This document shows, piece by piece, positions 1,708 through 26,794 of a DNA stretch of 34,658 bases. The notes below the pieces were generated by a model, which searched no databases, had not been told where the DNA came from, and saw only the letters and a program-made list of their open reading frames with translations. The translations under genes were made by a program, and so were the position numbers. How positions within the stretch are numbered: the first letter of the stretch is position 1; every line of letters starts with the position of its first letter. This stretch comes from Sedimentisphaerales bacterium (lineage in GTDB: Bacteria; Planctomycetota; Phycisphaerae; Sedimentisphaerales; SM23-30), in contig JAFGHE010000159.1 of NCBI GenBank assembly GCA_016930295.1, forward strand, positions 1-34,658, in the 5' to 3' direction.

Positions 1708-3734
1708 TGAACAGAACAATAAAAGCCATATTTGCCATATTCTTTATCGGTGTAATCACCTTCAGTGCGATCAGTATATGTCAGAACCTGGATGCCAGAT
1801 TATCGTGGAAGGCGGATTTAACCCAGCAGAAGATATATTCGCTCTCGGACGGCACCAAATCGATCCTGGCCAAATTGAACCAACCCATCACCATCAAGCT
1901 GTATTATTCCAAGACGGCGTCCATGAAGGCCACGGATGATATTCAGCAATATAACGAGTATTACTTCTTTGTCAGGGCCCTGCTGGAAGAATATGCCGCC
2001 CAATCGAACGGCATGGTGAAACTGGAAGTGATCGATCCCCGCCCCTATTCCGAGGATGAACAGGAAGCACTGCGTTATGGTTTGCGGCGGTTTCAGATTA
2101 CTGAAGATGAGAGTTACTTTTTCGGGCTGGTCGCCAAAACCGAATTCGGGGCTACGAAATCAATCGAATTTTTCAGTCAGGACCGGCAGAATTTTGTGGA
2201 ATATGACATCAGCTATTTAATTGATACCCTGCTGACCCGGGAGAAACGTAGAATCGGGGTGCTCAGTTCCCTGCCGGTGATGGGTGATGATGTGACCGGC
2301 TATATGGCCCAGATGAAACGTATGCAGGGTCAGGAACTGGAACTGCCGTGGGAGCTTGTCACAGCCCTGAAAAAGAAATATGATGTTATCAGATTGGAAC
2401 CCGACCTTGATAGCATTGAAGATATTGACATCCTGCTGCTCATCCATCCCAAGGATTTACCCCAAAAGACACTCTTTGCAATTGACCAGTTTGTACTCAG
2501 GGGAGGTCGAACCATCGTATCTGTGGACCCGCATTGTTTCCTGGACCTGCCGGACCCGCAGGCGATGAGACAGGGTATTCCCCCGGAGTCAGGCAGCTCA
2601 AATCTTTCGAAACTGATGAATACCTGGGGCGTTAACATGAAACCCGATATCTTTGCCGGAGATTTGAATCTGGCCATGAAAATGATGCGCAGAAACGGGG
2701 CCCCCGAAACAATCATAGGTATCCTGGAACTCAAAAAGCCCGACTGCTTCAATACGAAAAATACTATTACCACTGACCTCAATCAGGTCCAGGTCTGGTT
2801 TGCCGGAGCGCTGGAACAACTTACCACGGACTCGGAGGACACAGAGGAAAAAGATAAAGACACCAACCAACCTTCCTGTAATTTTGTGCCACTGCTGACC
2901 ACTACCCCGCAGGGGAACACCTGGAAGGTCAGCAATCCCTATGAACTGCAAATGATGAACAGTGAAAGCCTGATGGCCAATTTTACACCCGGTACCAAAC
3001 CGGTGGTTCTCGGCGGCCTGATTACGGGCCGGTTCAAATCGGCGTTTCCCGACGGGATTGAAGTGGAGGTGGAATCCGAAGCCGATCCTGAATCTGATGA
3101 AGACGGGACAAAACCTGAAAAGGAGATGAAAAAAATAACCGGCCTGATCGAAGCGGCGGAAGATACCGACTGCGCGGTGGTAATTTTTACCGATGTTGAC
3201 TTCCTGGCCAATCACGTGGCCTTTTCTTCCCATCCCCTGTTTGGCATGTTCCCGCGTGGTGACAACCTGGCTTTAGTGCTGAATACCCTCGAAAGTATCA
3301 GCGGGTCCGGCGATCTGATAGCCATCCGCAGCCGGGGTAATTTCCAACGGCCCTTTACCCTGATAGACGAGATAGAGAAAGAAACCCAGAAAGAAACCGC
3401 CGAGGAAGAAGAAAAAATCACGGCTGAAATAGAAAAGTATCAGGAAGAATTAAGAAACATCGTCAATGAGGCCCGTAATAAGGGAGAAACCGTTATCGAC
3501 GCGGCGGAACTGGCCGGGCCCACGGCAGAAATCAATAATAAGATACGTATCGCCGAGGGCGAACTGCGTAAGGTTCAGGACAAGAGACGGCAAAAAATCG
3601 AGGCCCTGCAGAACCGGCTCAAAATGTTCAATATACTGCTGGCTCCCGCGATTATCATGGTCATTGTCATTGTTTTATCACTGCGGCGATCCCTGCTGCG
3701 CCGGCGTTATATCAGCCATGCCAGTGATGCGTAA
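1707..3734 (+). CDS. GldG-like ABC exporter auxiliary protein
   Basis: N-terminal TM, SWKADLTQQKIYSLSDGTKSILAKLNQPITIKLYYS typical of GldG-family proteins, C-terminal coiled coil and terminal TM helix; start overlaps the permease stop. Confidence 0.88.
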   Translation: MNRTIKAIFAIFFIGVITFSAISICQNLDARLSWKADLTQQKIYSLSDGTKSILAKLNQPITIKLYYSKTASMKATDDIQQYNEYYFFVRALLEEYAAQSNGMVKLEVIDPRPYSEDEQEALRYGLRRFQITEDESYFFGLVAKTEFGATKSIEFFSQDRQNFVEYDISYLIDTLLTREKRRIGVLSSLPVMGDDVTGYMAQMKRMQGQELELPWELVTALKKKYDVIRLEPDLDSIEDIDILLLIHPKDLPQKTLFAIDQFVLRGGRTIVSVDPHCFLDLPDPQAMRQGIPPESGSSNLSKLMNTWGVNMKPDIFAGDLNLAMKMMRRNGAPETIIGILELKKPDCFNTKNTITTDLNQVQVWFAGALEQLTTDSEDTEEKDKDTNQPSCNFVPLLTTTPQGNTWKVSNPYELQMMNSESLMANFTPGTKPVVLGGLITGRFKSAFPDGIEVEVESEADPESDEDGTKPEKEMKKITGLIEAAEDTDCAVVIFTDVDFLANHVAFSSHPLFGMFPRGDNLALVLNTLESISGSGDLIAIRSRGNFQRPFTLIDEIEKETQKETAEEEEKITAEIEKYQEELRNIVNEARNKGETVIDAAELAGPTAEINNKIRIAEGELRKVQDKRRQKIEALQNRLKMFNILLAPAIIMVIVIVLSLRRSLLRRRYISHASDA

Positions 3735-19875: not shown

Positions 19876-20984
19876 AATACGGTCCTGCGGGCGATTTCCA
19901 GTTCCAGCTCTCTCAGGTCGTTATCTGATTCCTGATAAAATTGAACCTGCCAGGCGCTTTCATTGTCGAGATCAAGTAATTCACGGGCAAAATTAAGATG
20001 TTCAAAGGCATCCAGTTTTTCCGCCATGGGACTGATCATGTCGAACAGGCGGCTCAATTGGGTGCGTATGGGAACGACCTCTCCTGTTTCCGCGTCGATA
20101 ACATTGCCGTCAAGGCCGAATCGCATGGCCTGCCAGTGATTCTGCTCCAGAGAGGCAATATCCAGCCGGGCGGGCGGGTTCCCTTCAAGGTATAACTGCT
20201 GATAATACGCCATAGCGGCCTGGGTTACGGCGGCAAAAGCTCCCAGACGGCGGATATCGGTGGGCAGATCAAATACACGCACTTCCACTGTTCCCAGGGG
20301 CGGCTGAGGGCGCAGCGCCCACCATAAATCACCCGGTCGGGTTATATCACCGGCGGCTAGCAGCTTTTCGTAAAACGCCTCTAACTCGGAAAAATCATGA
20401 AAGTAGGGTGGCAAGTGGGTGCGCGGCATTGAGCCAAACAGGTGGGCCCGGGTGGATGCCAGGCCGGTTCGTTGACCCTCATAGAACGGCGAGTTGGCCG
20501 CCAGGGCCATTAACGGATATACCCAGCGACGGAATTCGTACATGGCATACATCGCACTTTCCACAGACTGCATCCCCACATGGACATGCAGACCAAAGGA
20601 TAGCAGACGCTGCACCAGATACACACATTGCTCCCTAACCCATTGATAATGCGGGGTAGGTACAATCTCCAGTTTGTGCCAGTCGGCAAAAGGATGGCTG
20701 CCGGCCGCAGCCAGTTTGACTCCCACTTTATCACAGGCCCGCCACAAAGCCTTACGAGTACTTCGAACATCAAGTATCAACTCATCAACGGTTCGAAATA
20801 CCCGGCTTTTACATTCCAATACCGCCAGGAACAATTCATATTCCAAGAGCCCCGCCAATTCCTCATCCAGTTGGGCCTTCACCTCATCAAAACACGGCGT
20901 TAAATCCGCGGTCTCCGGATCAATTAAATGAAATTCCTGCTCTACTCCCACAGTGGGAAAATCATTACGAACAAACGGTTTCAT
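19872..20984 (-). CDS. ybdK: YbdK-type carboxylate-amine ligase (glutamate-cysteine ligase 2 family)
   Basis: VGVEQEFHLIDPETADL; GLHVHVGMQS; WWALRPQPPLGTVEVRVFDLPTDI. Confidence 0.92.
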   Translation of the reverse strand: MKPFVRNDFPTVGVEQEFHLIDPETADLTPCFDEVKAQLDEELAGLLEYELFLAVLECKSRVFRTVDELILDVRSTRKALWRACDKVGVKLAAAGSHPFADWHKLEIVPTPHYQWVREQCVYLVQRLLSFGLHVHVGMQSVESAMYAMYEFRRWVYPLMALAANSPFYEGQRTGLASTRAHLFGSMPRTHLPPYFHDFSELEAFYEKLLAAGDITRPGDLWWALRPQPPLGTVEVRVFDLPTDIRRLGAFAAVTQAAMAYYQQLYLEGNPPARLDIASLEQNHWQAMRFGLDGNVIDAETGEVVPIRTQLSRLFDMISPMAEKLDAFEHLNFARELLDLDNESAWQVQFYQESDNDLRELELEIARRTVL

Positions 20985-22153
20985 GCCGGCACTCCTTCCC
21001 GGCAGATCTTTTCTGTCATACCCGCCATTATCAGCATGCCGTTACGCAGGGCCTGATCGTTAAAATCAAAATCCGATTGATGTAATTTGGCAGAGCCGAG
21101 ACCCATACCCACACGAAACAATAGACCCGGGATGTGTTGCAGGTAATAGCCAAAATCTTCCGAACCCATACTGGGTGATTCAAATTCCATAACCTTATCC
21201 GGCCCCAGCATATCTGCACCAACTTTTCTAAAGAGGGTATATAATTTCTCGTCATTTTTAACGACAGGTGTATGGTCCCCGAATGTTATCTGAGCCTGCA
21301 TACCAAGGTTACAACATTCCTGGTCAACCAATGCCCTGATTTCTGCCATAGTATCCTCTCGCACATCATCGGCCAGGGCACGCAGGCTGCCGGTCAATTC
21401 GCCCTCATCGGCAACGACATTGGGCCTGGTGCCAATATGGGCCGTACAAAGACTGACAACCCGCTGCGAGTTGTTCATTCGGCTCAGCACATCTATACAG
21501 CGGGCCATGCCGGCCATAGGATTATTGGTTTGCCGGGGCTGGGCGCCATGACCCCCTTTGCCTATCACTTTGATAGTCATCATATCACAGGAGGCCTGTA
21601 TTACACCCGGCCTTGATCCGATCAGGTCAACCGGCATATTCGGCCATCCATGCAGGGAAAAAATAGCGTCCGGCATCGTCTCTCCCAGACAGCCATCGTC
21701 AATCATCACCCTGGCGCCATGGCCGCTTTCCTCGGCCGGCTGAAAAACAAAACGGACACGTCCCATAAGCTTATCTTCCAACGACTTCAACACCTGCGCC
21801 GTGCCAATCAAAGAGGCTACATGCCCGTCATGACCGCAGCTATGGGCAAAGTCAGGATGTTGCGAACAATAATTCCTGCCGGTCGTTTCCCGGATCGGCA
21901 GTCCATCCATATCCGCGCGCAAGGCCACATAATATCCATCCCGCCCGGTATCCAGATCCCCCACTATGCCGGTCGATGCAACACCCGTCTTTATATCCAA
22001 GCCAATTTTCCTCAGTTCGCCGGCAATAAGTTCCGCGGTCTTATGCTCTTCAAACGCCGACTCCGGTATCTCGTGTAATTTCCGGCGCAGGGTGGTTATT
22101 GATTCCAACCGCCCATCAACCTGTCGGCTTATCAGTTTATAGGCGTTATGCAT
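20981..22153 (-). CDS. M20-family amidohydrolase (hippurate/IAA-amino-acid hydrolase type)
   Basis: LRADMDGLPIRETTG; HSCGHDGHVASLIGTA; FQPAEESGHGARVMIDDG; MGSEDFGYY. Confidence 0.95.
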   Translation of the reverse strand: MHNAYKLISRQVDGRLESITTLRRKLHEIPESAFEEHKTAELIAGELRKIGLDIKTGVASTGIVGDLDTGRDGYYVALRADMDGLPIRETTGRNYCSQHPDFAHSCGHDGHVASLIGTAQVLKSLEDKLMGRVRFVFQPAEESGHGARVMIDDGCLGETMPDAIFSLHGWPNMPVDLIGSRPGVIQASCDMMTIKVIGKGGHGAQPRQTNNPMAGMARCIDVLSRMNNSQRVVSLCTAHIGTRPNVVADEGELTGSLRALADDVREDTMAEIRALVDQECCNLGMQAQITFGDHTPVVKNDEKLYTLFRKVGADMLGPDKVMEFESPSMGSEDFGYYLQHIPGLLFRVGMGLGSAKLHQSDFDFNDQALRNGMLIMAGMTEKICREGVPA

Positions 22154-22457
22154 TTTTAATTCCTATATAATATTAACAGGAATACTCAGAAATTACTGCT
22201 AATCTTTCTGTGAGTTTATCTCAGCTTGCTATCACTGACTGATAGCCACTGATATGTGCCACGCTGGTCGAAATATGTAAGAGTATAGAAATAATAACCA
22301 CATGGAACAAATATTTCTTTTATTTATGCTCAATACTCAATTACCTGTCTATAAAACCATACCAGGACAACTAATCTTTTATTTAACACAGCGACTATTT
22401 AAGTGATTAGATAATTCTGGTCTATTCAAATAATTTATTTTTTTCTTTGAATATAAG

Positions 22458-22485
22458 TTGACAACTCTAATGCATAGGGTATAAT
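22458..22485 (+). promoter_or_regulatory. Sigma70-type promoter for a putative small RNA
   Basis: TTGACA (22458-22463), 16-nt spacer, TATAAT (22480-22485); both hexamers match consensus. Confidence 0.7.
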
Positions 22486-22491
22486 TTGATT

Positions 22492-22590
22492 ATATAGCCT
22501 CCGTATGGGGCGGCTCAACCCCCCTTCTTAATATGATCCCAACCGAAAGATCCCAATAACCTCACGAGCCGCCCTACCTTTTTTATTTTT
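22492..22590 (+). ncRNA. Candidate small structured RNA of unknown family
   Basis: Downstream of the consensus promoter; closing stem GGGCGGCTC (22508-22516) / GAGCCGCCC (22566-22574) extended by G-U and T-A pairs, then CCTTTTTTATTTTTT; no convincing ORF. Confidence 0.5.
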
Positions 22591-22782
22591 TCCACAGTTT
22601 TATTGTGAAATATTCTGCACAAAATGCTGCTAATAAAACAGCTTGGCGAAAACAGATAAGATGGGTAAAATAGTAAATTTTGAAAATGAGTAGAATTTTC
22701 CTTTTTTTTTAGAATGAGTCGTAGTCTTGCTTTTGTATAATGAGATACTTTGACTGAAATAAAAAAAATAATATCCCATAAA

Positions 22783-23273: not shown

Positions 23274-24185
23274 TTATTTCACGGAATCGTCCAGTTCCAT
23301 ACCAAGCTTTTTATATAATTCCCGACGCTGTGCTTTATCGATATTGAGGGTGGCACTGGCATAGAGAGCCGCTTCTTCTGCGTGGGCGCGGGGTACGACC
23401 AGTACGCCGTCACCGTCGGCAACGATCACATCTCCCGGCTCCACCAGCACACCTCCGCATTCGATCGGGCGGTTGACCGACTCAATTTCATTGCGCCCGG
23501 GGCGGATACCGCGCCCGGCCTTACGGAAGTAGAGCGGCACCTTTTCTGCTGCGATTTCGTCCGTATCGCGGGCCGAGGCATTGGTCACCACGCCCACACA
23601 ACCCTGCAGTTTCCAAGCCATAATATTGTTCGAGCCAATCGTGCCGACATCCGAGTCAGGGGCATCGTCAAAGACCAGGACCGTCCCTTTACGGATAAGC
23701 GGGGTAAACGGCTCGCTGGAAATTTTCCAGTACCAGTTACCCACCCACTCATCAAACTCCTTGGCACTCATACCACCCGAGGCCGGCGGCTTGTTCGTGG
23801 GCACATAACGGGCCGTCACCGCAATTCCGATAATCCGATGGGTGTAATTCTCATAATCCTTCCAGGACGGCATAATCTCCGGCGACATCAGCCCGATATT
23901 CTTCAAGCCCGCCTTATCCATTCCGTCCACCACATCCGAGACACGCAGGCCATCATACAATTTGAGTATCTGCTCATCCTCTTCCCGGGTATATACGCGC
24001 GTCGGAATAAAATTCTTCCCGTCCCGCAGGTCTTCAACCTGCTCGTCAGTCATATCCTGTGCCTGGACAGGATTACTGCCGACTCCCCAAAAAACAACCA
24101 GCACCATTAATCCCGCCATGACCAACAAGGCAGGCGTAATTTTTTTCCAGTTCCTGATAATTAACATCATAGTATTCTCCTTCAT
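23274..24185 (-). CDS. RraA-like family protein with N-terminal signal peptide or anchor
   Basis: Hydrophobic N-terminus ITPALLVMAGLMVLVVFWGVGSNPVQAQ; LRVSDVVDGMDKAGL, FDDAPDSDVGTIGSNNIMAWKLQGCVGVVTNASARD, GDVIVADGDGVLVVPRAHAEE. Confidence 0.85.
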   Translation of the reverse strand: MKENTMMLIIRNWKKITPALLVMAGLMVLVVFWGVGSNPVQAQDMTDEQVEDLRDGKNFIPTRVYTREEDEQILKLYDGLRVSDVVDGMDKAGLKNIGLMSPEIMPSWKDYENYTHRIIGIAVTARYVPTNKPPASGGMSAKEFDEWVGNWYWKISSEPFTPLIRKGTVLVFDDAPDSDVGTIGSNNIMAWKLQGCVGVVTNASARDTDEIAAEKVPLYFRKAGRGIRPGRNEIESVNRPIECGGVLVEPGDVIVADGDGVLVVPRAHAEEAALYASATLNIDKAQRRELYKKLGMELDDSVK

Positions 24186-24223
24186 AAAAAATTGTTGTTA
24201 TACGGCATTATAAAATCTTGCAT

Positions 24224-25267
24224 CTACTTTTTTCTTAACAAGGCATCGCGCACCGGCGTGTTCCACTCTTCCTTATCAATATCGTAGAGGATAAAATCGC
24301 TGTCGAACTGCCAATAGGCCCAACTCCAGCCGCGTTTTTCCATTTCCGTGGTGACAAACGACAGATAACGAACCCTTGACTCCATGCCGGCCTTGTCATA
24401 GACGCCAAACTCACCCAGGAAAAGGGGGCGCTGGTGTTTTTTGGACCATTCCTGCGCAATATCAAATTTTTCGGTAATGGCTGTCTTTTCTTCATCGGCG
24501 CCTTTCCATTCAACGCCCACTTTAAGCTCACGCCTGACCCACGGGGCCCCCTGATGCGTAAATTCCATGGGCTCATAAAAGTGAATGGTCACGATGATAT
24601 TCCGGTCGTCCTCCGGCAGGACCAGATGTTCCAGGTCCGAAATCGAATTAAAATGTGCCGGCCCGATGATGACCGTACGGGTCGGATTATGTTTGCGAAT
24701 GAGCGCCAGCGCCTCTTTCAAATACTCATTCCACATTTCCGGTTCCAGCTTCCGGCAGGGTTCGTTCAATATTTCAAATACCACCTCGTCCGGCGCATCT
24801 TTCAGACGCTCGGAGGCCTGTCGCCAGAAGGCCAGGAGCTTGGGCTTATTGGCTTCGGGATCATTGCCCAGGGCATAAAACTCGTGCATATCCAGGATGA
24901 CCATAAGATTGTTCTTCAAAGCATTTTGCATGGCCCAGTTCAGGACCTCCCACCATGAATCCGCCACGGTCAGGTCCTTCTCCTCATCCATAGAACCAAA
25001 CGGATGCAGATTGATACGCACGGTATCAAAACCTGCCTCTTTGATCATCTTAAAATACTTTTCCTTGAAGCGTGCCTGGTCCCGGGATTTCCAGATAGGA
25101 TCATAACCGATGATATTCACACCGCGGCCCAGCTTTTTATTTACTTCAAACATATCGGTTGTCTTCTCCGTCGCCGCCGCCAGCAGAACCGGATCCATAT
25201 TTCCTAAAAGCAGTAAAACCACAACCACTTTCGATAGTAACAAACATACTTTACGCAAATGAGCCAT
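24224..25267 (-). CDS. Secreted glycoside hydrolase family 5 (cellulase-like)
   Basis: Signal peptide; GFDTVRINLHPFG, LMVILDMHEFY, EILNEPCRKL, TVIIGPAHFNSI, RPLFLGEFGVYDKA - GH5 catalytic motifs. Confidence 0.9.
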   Translation of the reverse strand: MAHLRKVCLLLSKVVVVLLLLGNMDPVLLAAATEKTTDMFEVNKKLGRGVNIIGYDPIWKSRDQARFKEKYFKMIKEAGFDTVRINLHPFGSMDEEKDLTVADSWWEVLNWAMQNALKNNLMVILDMHEFYALGNDPEANKPKLLAFWRQASERLKDAPDEVVFEILNEPCRKLEPEMWNEYLKEALALIRKHNPTRTVIIGPAHFNSISDLEHLVLPEDDRNIIVTIHFYEPMEFTHQGAPWVRRELKVGVEWKGADEEKTAITEKFDIAQEWSKKHQRPLFLGEFGVYDKAGMESRVRYLSFVTTEMEKRGWSWAYWQFDSDFILYDIDKEEWNTPVRDALLRKK

Positions 25268-25322
25268 ATCAAACTCCTGTCTTCAAAAAACAATAAAACT
25301 ATAACTTATTTGTAGTCTCTCC

Positions 25323-25892
25323 TTAAAGCTGATATTTTTTTAAAAATTTCTCCGCCTTCTTCTTTACCGCGGGGCGGGTATTTTGACCCTGCTTCCTGGT
25401 AAACGTTATTACCGGCTCCTTATCCTGAATAAGGTTAAATATCTTATCAAAAGTATTTATCGCATGGCCTATGGCCACATTCCGGCATTCCGAGGTTTTA
25501 TAGTGGGCCTTTTCGACCTTTAAAATCTCATGGGCTATTTTATCCGCCAGTACCGGTTTGGCAAGTACAATATTTGCGGCGGCCCCGATGGTATTGGCCG
25601 CGGTTATCAGCACCGGGCCGGGAATGGGGGAAAAGAATATATCAAAAATCTTCTCTATCTTATGGTCCGCATCCACCGCTGCCAGGTTTCCAATCGTGAT
25701 AATAGCACCCCATTTGAGAAAGCTGTTATCACAGTAGAGCATCTCGACAAACCGATCAAAATAAGGATAAAGCCAAGCCGGCTTCAACTCACTGATCCGG
25801 CGGATTACTTTCTCGCAGCCATATTTAACTGCCGCCTTATCCGCCTCCAGCCCCGCCATCACCTCATCCAGCAACTCTTGTCGCTTAATCAC
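25323..25892 (-). CDS. HEAT-repeat-like helical protein
   Basis: Repeating amphipathic helices (LKWGAIITIGNLAAVDADHKIEKIFDIFFSPI, LITAANTIGAAANIVLAKP) typical of HEAT-like proteins. Confidence 0.6.
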   Translation of the reverse strand: MIKRQELLDEVMAGLEADKAAVKYGCEKVIRRISELKPAWLYPYFDRFVEMLYCDNSFLKWGAIITIGNLAAVDADHKIEKIFDIFFSPIPGPVLITAANTIGAAANIVLAKPVLADKIAHEILKVEKAHYKTSECRNVAIGHAINTFDKIFNLIQDKEPVITFTRKQGQNTRPAVKKKAEKFLKKYQL

Positions 25893-26029
25893 CTACGCTG
25901 CAACTTTGTCCCGGTCAAATCCCTTCCGGGAAATCGTATCAATTATCTTACTTGCCATTATATTACTTCCCGGAAAAAGTTACCTACTGAATATCATCAA
26001 AAGGCGATTCCATCTGAAATCTCAAATGG

Positions 26030-26794
26030 CTAGTCCAGTTCCCGGATCCATATATTCCTGTACCGTACTGGATTGCCGTGGTCCTGCAGAGAAAACGGTA
26101 GTTTGTCAGCATGGGGCTGGTATCGGGCGCGCTCCTTATGCATGGTCGTTCCCTGTATTACCCAGTGATCCTGAATCAGGACGCCGTTTTGTAACACGGT
26201 AATGGTGGCCGGGGTCAGCAGTTTTTCACCATCAAAGACCGGCCGGTGGAAGATAATATCATAAGTTTGCCACTGGCCCGGCGCCCGGCAGGCATTGACC
26301 AGCGGCGGCTTCTGCCCGTAGATTGCCCCGGCCTGGCCGTCGGGATAGGTGTCATTCTGATAGGAATCCAAGACCTGAACCTCATATCGGCCCATAAGAT
26401 AGATTCCGCTGTTACCCCGCCCCTGGCTATCCCCTTTAACCTCTGCCGGGGAGGCCCACTCGATATGCAACTGACAACTCCCAAAATCCTGGCGTGTCCG
26501 GATACCACCCAACTTCGGCACGACCTCCATAAACCCGTCTTTAATCTTCCAGGCGGCCGGGCCTCCTTTCTCAGATAGCCACTGGGACAGGTCCGAGCCG
26601 TCAAAAAGCACTATAGCATCCGATGGCGGCTCGCCGGGATTATCCCCCGGCTTCACCACCTCCGGCCTCGGACGATTCATATCATGAACCTCCCATATAT
26701 TAGCTGATAAAGAATCCTGTAATGGATCCTGGCAACCGCAGAGAAAAATAAACATCACTACAAGTATCCCCGGCAAAATTCGCTCGATTTTCAC
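26030..26794 (-). CDS. Lipoprotein with DUF1080 (3-keto-disaccharide hydrolase-like) domain
   Basis: Lipobox-like FIFLCGCQ; IVLFDGSDLSQWLSEKGGPAAWKIKDGFMEVVPKLGGIRTRQDFGSCQLHIEW; GNSGIYLMGRYEVQVLDSYQN. Confidence 0.92.
   Translation of the reverse strand: MKIERILPGILVVMFIFLCGCQDPLQDSLSANIWEVHDMNRPRPEVVKPGDNPGEPPSDAIVLFDGSDLSQWLSEKGGPAAWKIKDGFMEVVPKLGGIRTRQDFGSCQLHIEWASPAEVKGDSQGRGNSGIYLMGRYEVQVLDSYQNDTYPDGQAGAIYGQKPPLVNACRAPGQWQTYDIIFHRPVFDGEKLLTPATITVLQNGVLIQDHWVIQGTTMHKERARYQPHADKLPFSLQDHGNPVRYRNIWIRELD

Follow-up and report, generated by a model that had tools for sequence, protein, structure and literature searches.

Cuckoo/CcsR RNAs of alphaproteobacteria are multicopy, C-rich small RNAs (sRNAs) whose unpaired C-rich loops carry a CCUCCUCCC motif. 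CcsR1-4 share a transcript with the gene of a DUF1127 protein (PMC10253847). In Listeria monocytogenes, LhrC1-5 are five homologous copies of about 110 nt with a terminator hairpin, and lapB mRNA is bound by three redundant UCCC sites of LhrC, a process in which Hfq is not required (PMC4132741). Protein-sequestering RNAs of the CsrB/RsmX type carry a repeated single-stranded motif and sometimes occur in several gene copies (PMC4132741). Our literature search found no study devoted to the sRNAs of planctomycete-type bacteria. Here, we report that a unit on the smpB strand, about 190 nt before that gene, very probably encodes a genuine small RNA, and that five unlinked loci in the host genome carry a hairpin with a C-rich open loop: C250, which is the copy in the window (the whole stretch of DNA analyzed, 34,658 nucleotides), C26, C131, C198, and C237. 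The features of the window copy, in 5' to 3' order, are:

22458..22485, + strand, sigma-70-type promoter TTGACA-N16-TATAAT, 12/12 consensus match, evaluated by shuffle test
22493..22505, + strand, predicted 5' leader with AGCCTCCG (22496-22503), single-stranded and complementary to CGGAGG; start inferred from the -10 element
22506..22516, + strand, 5' arm of the closing stem, TGGGGCGGCTC, from the fold; the GGGGCGGCTC core is identical in four copies
22517..22565, + strand, open C-rich loop with AACCCCCCTTCTT and two AUCCCAA motifs (22536-22542 and 22550-22556), unpaired in the minimum free energy (MFE) fold; the motifs recur in sibling copies
22566..22576, + strand, 3' arm of the closing stem, GAGCCGCCCTA, from the fold; conserved
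22579..22591, + strand, T-tract TTTTTTATTTTTT, predicted transcription end, from the sequence

The initial annotation had described this architecture, and its description is exact: the consensus promoter upstream of the stem (-35 TTGACA at 22458-22463, -10 TATAAT at 22480-22485, spacer of 16 nt) is correct to the base, the closing stem, the C-rich loop without internal pairing, the CCCCCC (22519-22524), and the direct repeat GATCCCAA (22535-22542 and 22549-22556) lie at precisely the positions given, and the T-tract 3' of the stem is present. A promoter of equal quality was found in 0 of 500 shuffles. The GC-rich stem of 11 bp closes a 49-nt loop composed of 39% C and 6% G, and the MFE fold (-20.1 kcal/mol, z = -2.3, equally good folds in 3 of 200 shuffles) consists of this stem with the loop entirely unpaired. 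The hairpin was not flagged in a generic terminator scan because the loop limit of that scan is 8 nt.

No Rfam family matched at gathering thresholds, nor in 22440-22640 up to E = 10, and this includes the LhrC covariance model; the earlier view that the RNA is not SRP, 6S, or tmRNA agrees with the lack of any Rfam or ARAGORN match. By inspection of the aligned copies, no ORF is conserved and short ATG frames are not kept from copy to copy, and a peptide-coding reading was rejected. What is found here is what characterizes an independent sRNA gene closed by an intrinsic terminator, i.e., its own promoter, no conserved ORF, and a hairpin with a T-tract, the transcription itself being predicted.

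Recurrence at four further loci of the same genome is the decisive test against chance. A BLAST search in the host genome returned further copies on other contigs, C26 (E 1e-19), C131 (2e-11), and C198 (1e-9), and these three have the stem GGGGCGGCTC/GAGCCGCCC in common with C250. In the loop, CCCCCCTTCT is present in four copies and ATCCCAACC...ATCCCAA in four and partly in the fifth, the linkers between the loop motifs differ in length and sequence among the four close copies, and loop length ranges from 46 to 51 nt across all copies. The similarity among the four close copies belongs to the element (z 13-28); the DNA around them, whether upstream, far upstream, or downstream, is no more alike than chance predicts (z about -2 to 2). 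C237 is a weak fifth match (21.5 bits) to a covariance model of the other four in which it was not included, and it was recovered independently by a filter on structure alone, which is blind to the family's sequences and asks for a stem of 8 bp or more, a C-rich loop, and a T-tract. In its strict form, run over about 200 kb of the host genome, this filter returned family members only; a looser form, applied to 37% of the genome (about 1.56 Mb), gave the family copies together with background matches, mostly with weaker T-tracts and apparently mostly in coding sequence. The C237 stem is a different one of 13 bp, AGCCTGCGAGTGG/CCACTTGCGGGCT, and its loop keeps ACCGAAAGATCCCAAC. With C237 aligned, 100% of the stem cells are paired, every pair stays standard, and 6 of 10 pairs show two-sided change, a result matched by 0 of 500 shuffles; this covariation comes largely from one divergent sequence in an alignment fitted to the model, and we therefore take it as supportive, not conclusive.

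Sigma-70-like hexamers end 19-22 nt 5' of the stem in C250, C26, and C131. The promoter is strong in C250 and in C131 (TTGACG-N17-TATAAT, 11/12) and plausible in C26 (TTGATT-N17-TATAAA, 9/12) and C237, which are both at shuffle level (P 0.30 and 0.25, respectively). An [A/G]CCTCCG leader is common to C250, C26, and C131 (ACCTCCG in C131). T-tracts are strong in C26, C131, and C237 and weaker in C198. Since C198 has neither promoter nor leader and only a weak T-tract, it may be silent or decaying.

Each of the five copies is intergenic, with unrelated neighbors. Beside the C250 copy, an M20 peptidase gene lies on the opposite strand (20981-22153); of the other four loci, one follows gatB, one follows a sulfatase gene, one lies between a histidine kinase gene and fliM, and one precedes STAS-domain/anti-sigma-type genes, as named from the translations. 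Several other observations were made in these surroundings. Downstream of smpB, the window carries RraA-like, GH5 cellulase-type, and 3-keto-disaccharide hydrolase genes (23274-26794), which suggests polysaccharide degradation, and dockerin-like GDxxxx...DFAxxxxQWL segments were seen among the translations of the host genome, which may point to a planctomycete of the Phycisphaerae type. An Acido-Lenti-1 RNA (RF01687, 45.4 bits) lies at 2363-2408 (+) of the C198 stretch, about 85 nt away from the family copy there, and the same stretch holds several imperfect CTTCGGGRCTA repeats. A 27-nt near-identity to window 22577-22603 (T-rich stretch and TTCCACAGTTT) at 14997-15023 of C304, in an apparent coding region, is probably due to chance.

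BLASTN found no copy in 39 relatives, and the covariance model (R2) had no match in the other 160 genomes of the order, nor in 391 further genomes of the phylum; all relatives searched belong to genera other than that of the host. Three weak covariance matches in relatives (E 0.04-0.3) turned out to be ordinary short-loop terminators. In 18 related genomes whose smpB could be placed, a structural scan around that gene did not find the unit. The pattern CCCCTTCT-TCCCAAC-TCCCAA has 19 matches in 84,980 species genomes and 3 in IMG/VR; these were rejected as homologues, their number in genomes being about that estimated for chance and none having a comparable enclosing stem. In several genomes of the host's family, the shorter TCCCAAC-N-ATCCCA outnumbers its reverse, used as control, and lies mostly in coding sequence; the matches inspected do not belong to the RNA family, and the excess probably reflects codon usage. 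The initial annotation had named lack of the stem at smpB in relatives as evidence against its proposal, and the stem is indeed not kept there; it is kept at four other loci of the host genome, which makes the linkage to smpB incidental. With five places in the host genome and none in the other genomes searched, the copies look like sibling regulatory RNAs specific to this lineage and, judged from their sequences, make up an sRNA family that is new but of a known kind, confined to the host lineage as far as sampled. The earlier proposal of a new small RNA is well supported by its absence from Rfam and by its multiple copies with kept stem, motifs, leader, promoter position, and T-tract; we consider it highly likely that these loci are a real small-RNA gene family.

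We propose that the five sibling genes, C250 being one of them, would each encode a noncoding RNA of about 90-95 nt, transcribed, as we infer, from its own promoter (none is seen for C198). The GC-rich stem and the T-tract would terminate the RNA, and the stem would also close the single-stranded loop, which would expose CCCCCCUUCUU and two AUCCCAA(C) motifs, while the 5' end would expose CCUCCG. These exposed C-rich stretches would then pair with the G-rich Shine-Dalgarno/start regions of mRNAs and block translation, which is what the LhrC sRNAs do with their redundant UCCC motifs. For such pairing, LhrC1-5 is the best analogy: several homologous sRNA genes per genome (five loci here), redundant unpaired, CU-rich UCCC-type motifs (here two conserved AUCCCAA in the open loop), a hairpin terminator, and Hfq-independent action, the present host being without detected Hfq. 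LhrC has two hairpins and carries its motifs in each of the loops and in the stretch that joins them, whereas here a single large loop inside the terminator stem contains them all, and the present RNA has no Rfam sequence match. The present RNAs resemble Cuckoo/CcsR in being C-rich, in having several gene copies, and in their unpaired C-rich loops; unlike them, the copies here are dispersed with their own promoters, carry a different motif, and match no Rfam family. As in CsrB/RsmX, a single-stranded motif is repeated and the genes are in several copies, but multiple exposed GGA motifs are missing and the repeated motif is AUCCCAAC.

Hfq was not detected in the host genome and 14 relatives (15 genomes), in which the controls were found, nor was ProQ in the host genome; since this genome is about 89% complete, their absence from the host is likely rather than proven. 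Duplex scans covered 1047 predicted gene starts; at these, the loops showed no more complementarity than shuffled loops did or than was seen in mid-CDS windows, so the target ranking obtained is given no weight here. Among the regions scanned, only the CCUCCG leader was above shuffles at starts (72 versus 39 +/- 13), but not clearly above mid-gene windows (67). The Shine-Dalgarno pairing in trans proposed by the initial annotation thus finds no statistical support in loop complementarity at start codons, and we keep the trans-acting role conditional for this reason. We give about even chances to a five-copy sRNA family acting antisense on mRNAs.

Because the complementarity test added no support for pairing, a serious rival is that the RNAs titrate an RNA-binding protein through single-stranded AUCCCAAC motifs, two per molecule times five genes, i.e., the CsrB/RsmX logic with another motif and protein. 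The identical motif repeated in the open loop, the repeated genes, and the lack of enriched mRNA complementarity all fit, and the same alternative was raised for LhrC by its authors (PMC4132741). CsrA is encoded in the host genome, but by inspection no GGA motif occurs in 22493-22591, so CsrA is not the obvious partner and a CsrA sponge is unlikely. Overall, we regard titration as a rather doubtful reading, yet one to be kept in mind.

Five dispersed intergenic copies in one genome, none in relatives, together with the full stem-loop of C198 lacking leader and promoter and followed by a weak T-tract, would suit a dispersed palindromic repeat, i.e., a REP/MITE-like DNA element of about 80 nt whose terminator-like hairpin is incidental; the copy number of only five, the different and re-paired stem of C237, as expected of RNA, and the lack of target-site duplication by eye argue against it, and we find it improbable. 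Leader, T-tract, and promoter placement, all outside the stem, are common to three copies in nonhomologous DNA, a pattern better explained by a multicopy sRNA family than by a spreading repeat or a lone terminator. That the hairpins are ordinary terminators of neighboring genes, alike by chance or duplication, is quite unlikely: there is a GC stem with a T-tract, and same-strand genes lie upstream of C26 and C131, but no same-strand gene ends just upstream of C250, where the 12/12 promoter precedes the hairpin, and termination needs no conserved 49-nt loop. A cis-acting attenuator, i.e., a regulatory leader of smpB, would account for the position of the window copy on the smpB strand, but the other four copies are not upstream of smpB, the 18 relatives scanned around smpB have no such element there, and the T-tract closes the unit ahead of the gene; this is very improbable.

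Returning to the sRNA family, a broader reading is possible, if tentative: five lineage-specific sRNAs in a host without Hfq/ProQ, in which the terminator stem presents the 46-51-nt loop with AUCCCAAC repeats to bind a protein or many mRNAs, may constitute a chaperone-independent global regulator of unusual one-stem design. A multicopy family with identical loop motifs is a defined, testable entry point in a host without Hfq or ProQ, and the repeated motif should lead either to a new protein that binds RNA or to an antisense regulon that works without a chaperone.
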